From Vicinamibacteria bacterium (GTDB lineage Bacteria; Acidobacteriota; Vicinamibacteria; Marinacidobacterales; SMYC01), in the NCBI GenBank assembly GCA_035620555.1, contig DASPGQ010000046.1:1-34670 (forward strand): DNA of 34,670 nucleotides, written 5' to 3'. A model generated the notes under the pieces. The model worked only from the letters and a program-made list of their open reading frames with translations. It was not told the origin of the DNA and did no database searches. This document shows, in pieces, positions 5,362-11,478 of this stretch; position 1 is the stretch's first letter; the number at the start of each line of letters is the position of its first letter. Both the position numbers and the translations under genes were made by a program.

Positions 5362-7488
5362 CTAGCCGACGACATCCAGCTTGGCGTATTCGGCAACGAG
5401 CCGCTTTCTTCCCGCCTTGTGGAAGACGACGGTCACGCGGCAATCCCGGCCGGATCCGGAGGAATCCACGACACGCCCGTCACCGAACACCGCATGTCGG
5501 ACGAGAGCTCCCGCTCTCAGCCTGGCCTTGTGAGGGGAAGCTTTCGTTCTCGGGGGTCGCGCCTCGCTCGAAGTGGGGCTCAGCAACGCTGCGTCGATCT
5601 CGGTGACGAAACGACTCGGCACGCGGTCGGTCTCGGCATGCGAAAAGCGCCGCCGGCGCGCATAGGACAGAACGAGCCTTCTCTTGGCCCGGGTCATACC
5701 CACGTAAAAGAGCCGGCGCTCCTCCTCGATCTTTCTCCCATCGCTCATCGCGTGAACGTGAGGAAAGAGCCCTTCTTCGAGGCCCACGAGAAAGACGGTG
5801 TCGAACTCCAGGCCTTTCGCGGCGTGCAGCGTCATCACGAGACAGCGCGCCGGCGCCGATTCCGTATCGGCGTCAGTGAGGAGGCTCACGCGGTCGAGAA
5901 ACCCTTCGAGGGACGGCACGGTCTCCGAGGCCTCGTACTCCGCGGCAGCCGCGACGAGCTGCTCCAGGTTGTCTTTCCGCTCGACAGCCGACTTTTGTCC
6001 TTCTCCCTCGACCAAGGCCAAGAGACCCGATTCGGTCACGATCCTGCGCAGCGTGCGGCTCGGCCGGTTGGACTCGAGCCCCTGTTTCAGGCGCGTCACG
6101 AGCTCCAGAAACGTTCGCAGTCCCGAGCGTGCTCGCCCGGAAAGGATGCCATCGTCGATCAGCGCCGAGGCGGACTCGAACAACGACGAACGCGTCGTTT
6201 CCGCGCGCGCCCTGAGCAGAGAGATCGTTTGGGTGCCGATACCGCGGGGAGGGACGTTGACGACGCGGGAGAAGCTTGCGTCGTCGTCGAGATTCGACAA
6301 GAGTCTTGCGTAGGCGATGGCGTCTTTGATCTCGCGGCGCTCGTAGAAGCGGAGCCCGCCTAGGATTTGATGGGGAATGCCTCGTGCCACGAGCTCTTCC
6401 TCGAACGGACGGGACTGAGCGTGCGTACGGAGTAGGATTGCCGAGCGCGCCGCGGGATTCTCCAAACGAGTGCCCTCGAGCATCTGAGCGACGAAATGGG
6501 CTTCGTCCCGCTCCTCTTCGGCGGCGTGGAGAACGGGTTTCTGGCCCTCGTCGAGCCAGGCGATCAGGCGCTTCCCCTTCCGCTCGCGATTGTGGCGGAT
6601 GACTGCGTCGGCTGCCCTCAGGATGGCTCCCGCGGATCGGTAGTTCGTCTCGAGCGATACGACCCGTGCCTCGGGGAAGTCCCTCTCGAAATCCAGGATG
6701 TTACGCAGATCGGCGCCGCGAAACTTGTAGATGGACTGGTCCTCGTCTCCGACTACGAAAACGTTCTGGTGGGGAGCGAGCAGGCGCAGCAGCCGGTACT
6801 GGGTCCGATTGGTGTCCTGATACTCATCGACGAGGACGTGGCGGAAGTGATTCGAGCAGAATGCTTGTGCACGGGTGGAGCACTCTAGAAGCTCCACTCC
6901 TTGCAAGAGAAGGTCGTCGAAATCCACACTGCCTTGCTCTTCCATCCGTTTCTGATAGCGACCCGCGACCCTCGCGATGACCGGATCGACGCCGTCGTCT
7001 CGCTGCGAGCCCCCGAGCCCGCGATGCTTGAAGGCAGAGACGGCCGCCGCGACCCGTCCGATCGGGTATTCCCGGTCGGATACGTTCGACTCCCGCAGAA
7101 TGCCCCGCAACAAGGCCCGCCGGTCGTCCTCTCCACAAACGGTGAAGCCGGGGGCAAGACCGACGTCTTCGCCAAATCGGCGCAAGAGCCTCAAACAAAG
7201 CGCATGGAACGTGTGCAGCCAGACCGGCTCCGCGGCCTCGCCCAGCATCTCCTGCACCCGTCGCCTCATCTCGCCCGCGGCCTTGTTGGTGAAAGTCACG
7301 GCGAGGACGGCGTCGGACATCACGCCTCGGTCGCGAATCAGGTGCGCGATCCGGTGGACGATGACGCGGGTTTTCCCCGATCCGGCGCCGGCCAGCACCA
7401 GAGTCGGACCCTCCGGGGCGGTGACGGCGGCCCGTTGCTGGTCGTTCAATCCTTCGAGCACGCTGGGCAGCACGGCCCAGAATATCAC
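5362..7488 (-). CDS. pcrA: UvrD/PcrA-family superfamily 1A DNA helicase
   Basis: 3'-5' ATP-dependent DNA translocase/helicase, 708 aa, of the type used in nucleotide excision repair and in removing RecA or stalled replication proteins. All SF1A motifs are visible: Q-motif region LNDQQRAAV; Walker A AGAGSGKT (33-40); Walker B VDEYQDTN; motif III GDEDQSIYKFRGA; motif IV LETNYRS; motif V MTLHAAKGLEF; and motif VI FYVGMTRAKRRL. The C-terminal 50 residues (GALVRHAVFGDGRVV...) resemble the Tudor-like tail of PcrA. The first start is GTG 7488, which overlaps the glmS stop as GTGA and implies translational coupling; GTG 7461 is an alternative. PcrA versus UvrD cannot be settled from motifs alone. Last gene of the minus-strand yvcK-glmS operon. 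Confidence 0.93.
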   Translation of the reverse strand: MIFWAVLPSVLEGLNDQQRAAVTAPEGPTLVLAGAGSGKTRVIVHRIAHLIRDRGVMSDAVLAVTFTNKAAGEMRRRVQEMLGEAAEPVWLHTFHALCLRLLRRFGEDVGLAPGFTVCGEDDRRALLRGILRESNVSDREYPIGRVAAAVSAFKHRGLGGSQRDDGVDPVIARVAGRYQKRMEEQGSVDFDDLLLQGVELLECSTRAQAFCSNHFRHVLVDEYQDTNRTQYRLLRLLAPHQNVFVVGDEDQSIYKFRGADLRNILDFERDFPEARVVSLETNYRSAGAILRAADAVIRHNRERKGKRLIAWLDEGQKPVLHAAEEERDEAHFVAQMLEGTRLENPAARSAILLRTHAQSRPFEEELVARGIPHQILGGLRFYERREIKDAIAYARLLSNLDDDASFSRVVNVPPRGIGTQTISLLRARAETTRSSLFESASALIDDGILSGRARSGLRTFLELVTRLKQGLESNRPSRTLRRIVTESGLLALVEGEGQKSAVERKDNLEQLVAAAAEYEASETVPSLEGFLDRVSLLTDADTESAPARCLVMTLHAAKGLEFDTVFLVGLEEGLFPHVHAMSDGRKIEEERRLFYVGMTRAKRRLVLSYARRRRFSHAETDRVPSRFVTEIDAALLSPTSSEARPPRTKASPHKARLRAGALVRHAVFGDGRVVDSSGSGRDCRVTVVFHKAGRKRLVAEYAKLDVVG

Positions 7489-9326
7489 TCGACGGTGACC
7501 GATTTCGCCAGATTCCTCGGCTGATCCACGTCGCAGCCCCGGATGAGCGCGATGTAGTATGCCAGCAGCTGGAGAGGGATGACGCAGATGAGCGGCGATA
7601 CGGCTTCGGAGTGTCGCGGCAGTTTCACCACCCGGTCACGATCGTCGTCCAATATCTGGCCGAGCCGGTCCTCACCCTCGGTCGTGACCGCGAGGATGCG
7701 AGCTCCACGGGCCTTGGCCTCCTGGATGTTGTTGACGATCTTCTCGAAGAGCGAGTTCGCGGGCGCGAGCACGACGACGGGCATGCGTTCGTCGATGAGC
7801 GCGATGGGCCCGTGCTTCATCTCACCCGCGGGGTACCCCTCGGCGTGAATGTAAGAGAGCTCCTTCAGTTTCAACGCTCCCTCGAGGGCGATGGGAAACA
7901 GGAGTCCCCGTCCCAGAAAGAGGAAGTTCTCCGCAAGGTAGAAATCGCGGGCCAGGGCCTCGATCTCGGGGGCGAGCTCGAGCGCCAGCTCCATCAGGTG
8001 CGGTGCCCGAGCCAAATCGTCGAGCCGTCCCCGGGCGGCCTCGGGCGATAGGCGGGAGAGTTTCTGAGCGAGCTCGAGTGCCAGCAGATACAGGACGAGG
8101 ACCTGCGACGTGAACGTCTTCGTGGCCGCAACCCCGATCTCGGGGCCGGCGTGGGTATACAGCGTCTCGTGACACAGTCGGGAGACCATGGACCCCACCA
8201 CGTTGGAGATGGCGAGTGTGTGGGCACCGGACTCCTTGGCGCGCTTGAGGGCCGCCAGAGTGTCAGCCGTTTCGCCCGATTGGGTGACCCCCACGACGAG
8301 GTCCCGGCTTCCAAGCAGTGGAGGCCGATAACGGAACTCGGACGCCACGTCGATGTCCACGGGAATGCCGGTGAGCTCCTCGAGGTAGAACTTTCCGACC
8401 TGCGCCGCGAGCCAGCTCGTCCCGCAGGCGACGACCACGATCCGCCTAGCCTCGCGAAGGAAGTCAGCGTCGAGCCCATTCGTGCTCAAGTGCAAGCGCC
8501 CGGAATCGAGTGAATAGCGGCCGAGAAGCGTGTCGCGAACGGCTCGAGGCTGCTCGAATATCTCTTTCAGCATGAAGTGCTTGAATCCGCGCTTCTCCAC
8601 CTGCACCGGGTCCCAATCGATCCGCTGCGCCGGCCGCTCGAGCGCCTGGCCGTCGCGGTCGACGACGCTCACTCCGTCGCGTCGGATTGTGGCCACGTCT
8701 CCGTCATCGAGAAAGATCACCGAACGCGTGTAGCTCAGAAACGCGGGAACGTCGGATGCGAGAAACGACTCGCCTTCTCCCAAGCCAACGACGAGCGGGG
8801 GGCCGTTGCGCGCGCCCACGAGAAGGCCCGGGACCGCGGTCGAGAGAGCCACGAAAGTGAACGCACCCTCCAGCTCCTGGAGCGACTGCCTGACGGCGAG
8901 CAAGAGATCGCCCTGAAAATGTTTCTCGATCGTGTGGGCAATGACCTCGGTGTCGGTTTCCGTGACGAAGCGATGGCCTTCCCCGGCGAGCCGCGGCTTG
9001 AGGTCGAGATAGTTCTCGACGATTCCGTTGTGGACGACGACGATCGTGCCGGTACAGTCACGATGCGGGTGGGCGTTCTCCTCGTTCGGTCGCCCGTGGG
9101 TGGCCCAGCGCGTATGGCCGATCCCGTACGAGCCGTTCATGGTTCCCGGTCTGACCTGGCTCGTCAGATTGTGGAGTTTCCCTTCGGAGCGAAGCACCTT
9201 GAGCTCGGTTCCATTCGCGACAGCGATCCCCGCGGAGTCGTAACCGCGGTATTCGAGTGACCGAAGACCAGCGAGAAGTGTCTCGGTGGTCGAGCGTTCG
9301 CCCACGTATCCAATGATGCCGCACAT
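7485..9326 (-). CDS. glmS: glutamine--fructose-6-phosphate aminotransferase (isomerizing)
   Basis: Makes glucosamine-6-phosphate from fructose-6-phosphate and glutamine, the committed step to UDP-GlcNAc. ATG 9326 gives MCGIIGYVGE, so Cys2 becomes the N-terminal glutaminase nucleophile after Met removal; the 613-aa length is normal. Motifs seen are LEYRGYDSAG, HTRWATHG and NGIVENY in the glutaminase domain. Two SIS domains follow: VACGTSW and VTQSGETADT in the first, HAEGYPAGEMKHGPIALI in the second, with the usual LAKSVTVE end. The gene starts 5 bp after the GlmU-like stop, so there is no room for a glmS ribozyme leader. Control most likely acts on the shared promoter at 12149-12178 or on the enzyme itself. 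A longer in-frame reading upstream would overlap glmU and lose the N-terminal Cys, so it is rejected. Confidence 0.97.
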   Translation of the reverse strand: MCGIIGYVGERSTTETLLAGLRSLEYRGYDSAGIAVANGTELKVLRSEGKLHNLTSQVRPGTMNGSYGIGHTRWATHGRPNEENAHPHRDCTGTIVVVHNGIVENYLDLKPRLAGEGHRFVTETDTEVIAHTIEKHFQGDLLLAVRQSLQELEGAFTFVALSTAVPGLLVGARNGPPLVVGLGEGESFLASDVPAFLSYTRSVIFLDDGDVATIRRDGVSVVDRDGQALERPAQRIDWDPVQVEKRGFKHFMLKEIFEQPRAVRDTLLGRYSLDSGRLHLSTNGLDADFLREARRIVVVACGTSWLAAQVGKFYLEELTGIPVDIDVASEFRYRPPLLGSRDLVVGVTQSGETADTLAALKRAKESGAHTLAISNVVGSMVSRLCHETLYTHAGPEIGVAATKTFTSQVLVLYLLALELAQKLSRLSPEAARGRLDDLARAPHLMELALELAPEIEALARDFYLAENFLFLGRGLLFPIALEGALKLKELSYIHAEGYPAGEMKHGPIALIDERMPVVVLAPANSLFEKIVNNIQEAKARGARILAVTTEGEDRLGQILDDDRDRVVKLPRHSEAVSPLICVIPLQLLAYYIALIRGCDVDQPRNLAKSVTVE

Positions 9327-9331
9327 GATGT

Positions 9332-10462
9332 TTAGCCTTTCGTTTTCTTGAGACCGCTCTTTTTCCTCTTCCTTGCCCAGCCGCGCTTCACGAGCTGACG
9401 AGTCCTGGCGAGAGCAAGTGCGTAGGCGGGAACGTCCTCGACGATGCACGAGCCCGCCGCTACATACGCGCCTTTTCCGACGCGCACCGGCGCCACGAGC
9501 TGAACGTCGCTGCCGATAAAGGCGCCGTCCCCCACGACGGTTCGATGTTTCTGCACCCCGTCATAGTTGCAAGTAATCGTCCCGGCGCCGATGTTCGATC
9601 CCCGGCCGACGGTGGCGTCGCCGAGGTAGCTGAGATGGGGCGCCTTGGCGCCTTCTCCCAGCCGGGTGTTCTTGAGCTCCACGAAGTTTCCGACTCGCGC
9701 GTGGTCCGAAACGTGGGAGTCCGGCCTCAAATGCGCGAAGGGGCCAATCGAGACGCCTCGTCCAATGCGGCTCGATCGGATGAAGCTATGATCGAGCACA
9801 ACCGTACCCGCGCCGATGGACGAATCCACGATGTGGGAGAAGCTCGAAACCACGCACTTGGGACCGATTCGGGTGTTGCCTTCCAGAACGACGAAGGGGT
9901 GGAGCACCGCGCCTCGGCTCACGACGACTTCGGGATCGACGAGAACGCCGGTCGGATCTCCGATCACGACGCCCTTGTCCATCAGGGCGGTCACCTTCCG
10001 CCGTCGGAGGATGGAAACGGCCTTCGCGAAGGTGCCGGCGTCGGAAACCCGCAGAATCTCTTCGTCATGATCGGGGAAAACCGGGGTCGCGTCGAGACGG
10101 TGCGACAACCCGTTCAGGCTCGGGCCCAAGGCCCCAAGAGCTTCCGCGGAGGGCGCGTAAACGACCCCGCTACCCGCTAGAGTTCTGGCCCCCCCGTTGC
10201 GGCGGCGTTTCGCGAGGCGTCGCAGCGAGGCGCCGGTCAAGAGCGGAAGCTCTGCCGGCATCAAGAGAACGGGACCCCGCAGCCGACCGAGACCGCCGGG
10301 GTGGCAGAACTGGATTCCCGGTGGAGCCTGCGGCGATATCCAGACGACGCGCCCTACCCCGAGGCTGCTGGCGGCTTGAAGGGTTCTCCTCCAGACCGGC
10401 ACACCGAGCAGGTCAGCCGAGGCGTACGTGCTCGTTTTCGTCCACAACGCCAGCGTCGTCAT
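9332..10462 (-). CDS. GlmU-like protein: intact acetyltransferase domain, degenerate uridylyltransferase domain
   Basis: 376 aa against about 456 in normal bifunctional GlmU. The start ATG 10462 overlaps the yvcK stop as ATGA. The C-terminal left-handed beta-helix (about 165-360) is complete and keeps the acetyl-transfer residues. By eye-alignment to E. coli these are R246 (R333), K264 (K351), catalytic H276 (H363), Y279 (Y366), N290 (N377), N299 (N386) and R353 (R440). The N-terminal domain is only about 160 residues and lacks the nucleotidyltransferase signature LAAGxGTRMxSxxPK; the region reads [17 protein letters not shown] instead. Flanking homology survives ([30 protein letters not shown]), so this is an eroded GlmU and not an unrelated fusion. 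Probably a glucosamine-1-phosphate acetyltransferase only, with uridylyl transfer done elsewhere. A C-terminal Lys/Arg-rich tail follows. Confidence 0.85.
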
Positions 10463-11478
10463 CCTAGAACCCGCTGTCCGCCAAGAGATACCCGTGCGCG
10501 ATGGAACAGCTCGAGAAGTGCTTTGGCTGTCCGAACACCGTCGTGGCGGACAAAGGGGCCCGGCAGAAGCAAGTCCTCCACGGCGACGGGGCAGTACGGG
10601 TCGTCGCCGGGGTCGAGCCTCACCGGCAACGATCCCTCGTCTCGGTATCGCGCAAGCGTTTCCGTCGGAACCGGTCTGCCGTTGGCGAGAATGTGCGACA
10701 GACGAAGCCCGGGGCAATGATCGGTGAGCGCGCGGACGTGGTCGGTCAGCGAGTAGCCCGTCGTCTCACCCGGCTGCGTCATCACGTTCGAGACGAGCAC
10801 CACCATCGAATTGGTCGAGGCGAGCACGTCGCAGACCCCGGGAACGAGGAGGTTGGGCAGAAGGCTGGTGTAAAGCGAGCCGGGTCCAAGAAGGACCAGG
10901 TCTGCTTGCCGCAGGGCCACGAGAGCGTCCTCGGGCGGAGCGCAATCCGGAGGATCGAGATAGACGCGACGAACCCGGGCGTCGGCCTGAACGATGCTCG
11001 TCTCCCCGCGAAGTCGGCGACCGTCCTCGAGCTCCGCGACGAGCGACACGCACGCCGTGGTGGAGGGAAAGATGCGTCCGCGAACCGCAAGGACGTGGCC
11101 CGCCGCGCGCAGAGCTTCGGAGAAATCACCGGTGACGGCCGTCAGCGCCGTCAGAAAGAGGTTGCCAAAGTTGTGGCCGCCCAGGTCACCGTTTCCCGCG
11201 AATCGATACTGAAAGAGCGAGGAGAGGAGCGACTCGTCTTCCGACAGCGCGACGAGGCAGTTTCGAATGTCCCCGGGCGGCACCATTTGAAATTCGTCTC
11301 GCAACCGTCCCGAGCTGCCGCCGTCGTCGGTGACCGTCACCATGGCGGCGATGTCGGCGATGTAAACGGACTCGTTCGCGGAAGGTTGCGGTGGCTCGAC
11401 GTACCGTCGCAAGCCGGCGAGGAGCGTGGAGAGTCCCGTCCCCCCGCCGATGGCGAAAACTCTCAGCCCGTAGATCAT
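10459..11478 (-). CDS. yvcK: YvcK/CofD-like family protein, predicted UDP-GlcNAc-binding regulator
   Basis: 339 aa. The start ATG 11478 yields [20 protein letters not shown], with the glycine-rich nucleotide-sugar binding loop GGGTGLS at 11-17; a long upstream in-frame extension is rejected. Further family motifs are [36 protein letters not shown] and [17 protein letters not shown]. In Firmicutes and mycobacteria, YvcK/CuvA binds UDP-GlcNAc and affects cell shape, carbon-source adaptation and GlmS control. Here it sits between a TPR protein (28 bp upstream) and the GlmU-like gene (4-bp ATGA overlap), directly joined to the pathway that makes its ligand. CofD, the phospho-lactate transferase of F420 synthesis, is the related alternative; no F420 genes are nearby. 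Confidence 0.9.

Follow-up and report, generated by a model that had tools for sequence, protein, structure and literature searches.

The glmU gene in the 34,670-nucleotide stretch of DNA analysed here (the window) most probably encodes a monofunctional acetyltransferase whose uridylyltransferase half has become a pseudo-enzyme, with a separate protein doing the last step of UDP-GlcNAc synthesis; we give this reading as a whole a probability of about 0.8. The bacterial route to UDP-GlcNAc through GlmU is regarded as universal, and the enzyme counts as an antibacterial target. No description of a monofunctional or truncated GlmU was found in the open-licence papers searched. In the proposed mechanism, the beta-helix half would make GlcNAc-1-P, the N-terminal half would be a folded remnant unable to bind UTP or metal, and the conversion of GlcNAc-1-P and UTP into UDP-GlcNAc would be carried out by another protein. 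The most likely enzyme for this step would be an order-specific ST0452-like nucleotidyltransferase encoded outside the window (G000:C389:26545-27639, where G000 is the host genome), to which GlmR, the product of the neighbouring gene, may contribute.

The genes concerned lie on the minus strand in the order yvcK/glmR, glmU* (the eroded gene), glmS:

10459..11478, minus strand: glmR/yvcK, UDP-GlcNAc-binding protein and possible uridyltransferase (TIGR01826)
9332..10462, minus strand: glmU*, 376 aa, predicted to act on GlcN-1-P as a monofunctional acetyltransferase, its N-terminal nucleotidyltransferase domain being degenerate
9968..10462, minus strand: degenerate uridylyltransferase remnant (residues 1 to ~165), UTP- and metal-binding sites all lost, predicted alpha/beta fold superposing on GlmU
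9332..9967, minus strand: intact left-handed beta-helix acetyltransferase domain (residues ~166 to 376), pLDDT >90 over most of it
7485..9326, minus strand: glmS, full glutamine-fructose-6-phosphate aminotransferase (TIGR01135, 799.9 bits)

The glmU* frame starts with ATG and contains no internal stop, and its N-terminal sequence agrees with the one quoted in the original prediction. Since the stop codon of glmR overlaps the start of glmU* in an ATGA, and only 5 nt separate the glmU* stop from the glmS start, the three genes almost certainly form one co-transcribed unit. The NCBIfam profile for GlmU, TIGR01173, matches the protein at profile positions 212-452 only (E 3.2e-86), with a score of 289.9 bits that falls below the cut-off of 366.85 bits, and a Pfam search of the protein at E values up to 1 returned no nucleotidyltransferase-domain family.

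A site-by-site census was based on E. coli GlmU, aligned with 12 intact GlmUs of the same class. The N-terminal domain had been described as having about 160 residues rather than about 230, and the alignment confirms this: the uridylyltransferase half is some 70 residues shorter than in a bifunctional GlmU, and it lacks both the segment that carries the QLGTGH loop and, from GYGRI to NAQGEYYLTD, the sugar-binding half. In E. coli numbering, deletions remove K25, Q76, G81, T82, G140, E154, and N169, a gap stands at G14, T-S-T replaces G16-T17-R18, and D105 and N227 are changed to E and S, respectively. The claimed replacement of the LAAGxGTRM loop is thus borne out; the first leucine alone survives of the LxxGxGTRM signature, and none of K25, Q76, D105, and N227 is kept. 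All 12 intact relatives retain G14, G16-R18, K25, Q76, G81, T82, D105, G140, E154, N169, and N227 when aligned in this way, so that the losses in the window protein are no alignment accident. The flanking segments, said to be still alignable, are indeed recognisable around the first beta-alpha-beta unit and the strand of the metal site. In the other half, the acetyltransferase sites R333, K351, H363, Y366, N377, N386, Y387, K392, S405, A423, and R440 are identical at 11 of 11 positions, as expected from the earlier claim that the acetyl-transfer residues are kept.

H. influenzae GlmU has been reported to have an absolute requirement for K25, Q76, and D105 (PMC10128056). Judged by its residues, the window protein has nearly certainly lost its uridylyltransferase activity, and the census supports the prediction that it would acetylate GlcN-1-P and form no UDP-GlcNAc. 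It resembles the bifunctional GlmUs (TIGR01173; E. coli; S. pneumoniae, 1HM0/4AAW) in its acetyltransferase half, the glmS gene order, and the predicted fold, but differs from them in this shortened half devoid of catalytic residues.

The same loss, for which a survey of relatives had been proposed, is present in all four genomes of the window's family (f1) and in its sister family (f2). The other members of f1 (G001-G003) share this shortening of the domain, and the order yvcK-glmU*-glmS is found in 4/4 genomes; in f2, which belongs to the same order, GlmU is shortened too, with a remnant that is different yet alignable (eight f2 genomes were aligned). Derived features common to f1 and f2, such as D-A-x-x-W-S-x-A replacing N-S-R-x-E-L-A-E, suggest that the erosion started before the two families split. 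Most other members of the class possess a complete GlmU (39 of 60 relatives above the cut-off).

That the shortened domain is an assembly or sequencing artefact, or belongs to a decaying pseudogene, is hardly credible. The host genome (7.0 Mb, 97.9% complete) is a draft in 835 contigs; however, independent genomes of the family share both the shortening and the gene order, the frame is open, and the acetyltransferase half is strongly constrained. Moreover, the three minus-strand frames of 9301-11000 contain no displaced GxGTRM, QLGTGH, GYGRI, GDxPL, or NAxGEY. The case named as refuting the original prediction, a displaced LxxGxGTRM revealing a sequencing error, is therefore not encountered, and such an error was rejected because both the relatives and the frame scan contradict it. 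The proposed search of the same genome found neither a full nor a second GlmU in G000.

Pairwise Nei-Gojobori dN/dS values, which are rough between distant family members, where dS is saturated, were about 0.2-0.8 for the remnant versus 0.03-0.26 for the acetyltransferase half encoded by these genes; in the main genus of f2, the ranges were about 0.26-0.63 versus 0.03-0.10. From these ratios, the remnant appears relaxed but non-neutral, under weak purifying selection and with a stable length.

Structure prediction of the N-terminal domain, another of the checks proposed, gave a GlmU-like alpha/beta fold. In the AlphaFold2 model of the whole window protein (pLDDT 83.9; 50-85 in the remnant), the remnant is predicted to be a compact domain superposing on GlmU, although the input alignment held full GlmUs and may have biased the model toward this fold; against GlmU structures, the predicted protein gives a Z of ~37 over 360-372 residues. 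This fold, the constant length, and a dN/dS below 1 could be taken to mean that the domain has rebuilt its active site and still works as a uridylyltransferase. Such an activity is very improbable, however, given that the three residues reported as required in GlmU (PMC10128056) are all gone, that the sugar-binding half is deleted, and that the dN/dS is roughly two to ten times that of the acetyltransferase half. Another possibility, which we consider tentative and on the unlikely side, is that the remnant has acquired a new function in binding or regulation, for example, as a docking site for GlmR, for GlmS, or for the separate uridylyltransferase. Consistent with this, it has been retained in f1 and f2 although the phylum also contains GlmUs free of any N-domain (f12, G096, G365, G429), and its constant length and weak purifying selection point the same way; nevertheless, this constraint is weak, and nothing in the analysis points to a conserved surface motif, a binding partner, or a ligand site. 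A new job and a split pathway can be true together. The original prediction had called for a separate uridylyltransferase or else a regulatory or binding N-terminal domain: for the former, two candidates have been found, while the latter is a possible role for a domain of kept length and weak constraint.

The first of these candidates was sought by its range, that is, among proteins whose distribution matches the erosion of GlmU. The 365-aa protein encoded at the C389 locus has an intact nucleotidyltransferase domain with a beta-helix tail and is present in 10 of the 11 genomes tested in the order (G000, G001, G002, and seven from f2), the orthologues being full length with 40-58% identity and E values from 1e-62 to 1e-134. 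It was not found in G003, a genome that is 75% complete. Among 69 other genomes, roughly half of them with no full-length match to GlmU, no orthologue was found; the strongest hit there (~3e-30) is what ordinary RmlA-like paralogues give. The nearest solved structure is that of ST0452 (5Z09, E 4e-32; the next family is at 1e-20), and the structure entry describes this archaeal protein as a dual sugar-1-phosphate nucleotidylyltransferase. The domain order of the candidate is like that of ST0452 (TIGR03992; PDB 5Z09, 2GGO), its closest solved relative. TIGR03992 also gives it the highest family score, across positions 1-365 of 393, but the score of 227.6 bits is below the cut-off of 292.1, and the beta-helix is weakly conserved, which makes an acetyltransferase role for this tail doubtful. 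The PKPL lysine and the RGT, NGDD, EKP, and WDV motifs are present in 10/10 aligned orthologues, and in the window's family, GRSTR stands in place of the usual GxGTR. The candidate has a dN/dS of 0.04-0.06 in the main f2 genus, a strong constraint compared with that on the GlmU remnant there.

AglF-type UDP-glucose enzymes are relatives, a point against the candidate. GalU is present in 4/4 genomes of the window's family, so the supply of UDP-glucose does not explain the ST0452-like enzyme there. On the sequence evidence, we lean slightly towards this enzyme as the main UTP:GlcNAc-1-P uridylyltransferase, bearing in mind that the co-occurrence of remnant and candidate is one event on the tree, whatever the number of genomes.

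The second candidate is GlmR, encoded in the same operon, which might now carry out the uridylyltransferase step in full, leaving the GlmU half redundant. In the species studied, GlmR is an accessory enzyme only, working beside a full GlmU, whereas the GlmU that accompanies it here is predicted to be incapable of the step. The upstream gene of the window is a clear member of the GlmR/YvcK family known from B. subtilis and L. monocytogenes (TIGR01826 at 327.9 bits, above the cut-off of 196): the alignment with 2HZB spans its length, with the consecutive catalytic aspartates aligned and the LPNLLVP motif kept. L. monocytogenes GlmR makes UDP-GlcNAc out of UTP and GlcNAc-1-P, and its D40/D41/N198 triple mutant suffers a ~100-fold loss of activity (PMC10128056), while B. 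subtilis GlmR requires D38 and D39 (PMC13046274). This activity, the presence of the DD and LPN motifs, and the ATGA overlap within a gene order kept throughout the family all speak for a takeover. However, f2 shares the erosion and yet has GlmR in 0/10 genomes, and among the seven families with a dead N-half, an above-cut-off GlmR occurs only in the window's family and in G337. Adjacency itself is weakened as evidence of a takeover: glmR often sits beside a full glmU in the phylum, which makes this arrangement ancestral rather than a gain that came with the loss. For these reasons, GlmR ranks second to the ST0452-like enzyme, and its takeover of the whole step is unlikely; redundancy with a retained GlmR may all the same have eased the loss of the GlmU half. 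The lost step probably falls, as far as genomes can tell, to the separate enzyme of the order or to the neighbouring GlmR. We infer both activities, as well as the identity of the last-step protein, and the likelihood that is left after these two candidates goes to something else.

A third protein was rejected as a replacement for GlmU. A PF01704 protein is present in 10/10 f2 genomes versus 0/4 in the window's family, and in the phylum, 12 of the 13 genomes with a full-length PF01704 copy lack a full GlmU. However, this protein is a relative of the Leishmania-type UDP-glucose pyrophosphorylase, and its carriers are without GalU: GalU was not found in f2 or in the f52 genomes tested (G163, G215, G270, G392). 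Most likely, it stands in for GalU rather than GlmU and would supply UDP-glucose. The f2 protein is thus like the Leishmania-type enzyme, but it occurs where GalU is missing, and it is absent from the window's family. The replacement of bacterial GalU by a eukaryote-type (Leishmania-like) UDP-glucose pyrophosphorylase in f2 (G004-G013) and f52 is an observation in its own right.

Across Acidobacteriota, the phylum to which its nearest named relatives assign the host genome, a survey of 396 genomes with a completeness of at least 90% gave a GlmU over the cut-off in 303. A survey by E value alone is too coarse, since half-length matches mix split, N-only, beta-helix-only, and dead-N forms; a closer look was taken at 68 genomes, mostly from those without an above-cut-off GlmU. 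The GlmU genes are split in f20 and f39, where the N-half and the beta-helix half apparently are separate genes at different places (e.g., G139, G166, G203). Only the N-half is found in f52 and f79, and only the beta-helix in G096, G365, and G429. Near-full-length frames with a dead N-half occur in f50, f61, f72, f82, and G337 of f36; in representatives (eight from f50, two from f72, and one each from f61, f82, and f36), the uridylyltransferase sites have been lost and 11/11 acetyltransferase sites remain. A GlmU with a predicted dead N-half is found, then, in at least five further families, seven with f1 and f2, and its apparent loss of activity is recurrent.

The ST0452-like enzyme is no general solution, as it is missing from the tested genomes of the other dead-N-half families, most of which also lack GlmR. 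In the genomes tested from f50, f61, f72, and f82, neither GlmR, nor the eukaryote-type pyrophosphorylase, nor an ST0452-like enzyme was found. In f50 (17 surveyed genomes, e.g., G158, G278), the dead-N-half GlmU goes with the absence of GlmR and of a full-length PF01704 protein; ST0452-like matches in five genomes tested were no better than 5e-9, and GalU was absent in the one tested. That GlmU repeatedly became an acetyltransferase with a pseudo-uridylyltransferase, in at least seven families, with a different UDP-GlcNAc enzyme each time and the dead domain docking it, is a speculative and rather improbable generalisation.

What these families share is a real, lineage-wide, and recurrent form of GlmU, a pseudo-enzyme by prediction, and the four with no candidate enzyme raise the question of their source of UDP-GlcNAc. 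Annotation pipelines will mislabel such proteins as bifunctional GlmU. A lineage left with one activity also offers a natural experiment on whether the uridylyltransferase step can be left entirely to GlmR or to an enzyme of archaeal type.

Several minor observations were made. In f33 (G121) and in genus g98 of f40 (G131 and others), genomes of high completeness have no GlmU-like match stronger than ~1e-31. At L099 (G033:C62, 1856-3043), the reverse of the window case is found, with LILAAGKGTRM intact and most of the acetyltransferase beta-helix missing, possibly due to an assembly fault. Finally, no full GlmS was found in the f2 genomes (G004-G013); the protein encoded next to glmU* there, on its downstream side (L086-L094), matches the isomerase half of GlmS only (TIGR01135 254-604) and lacks a glutaminase domain, and, from this domain content, its nitrogen donor may be ammonia rather than glutamine.
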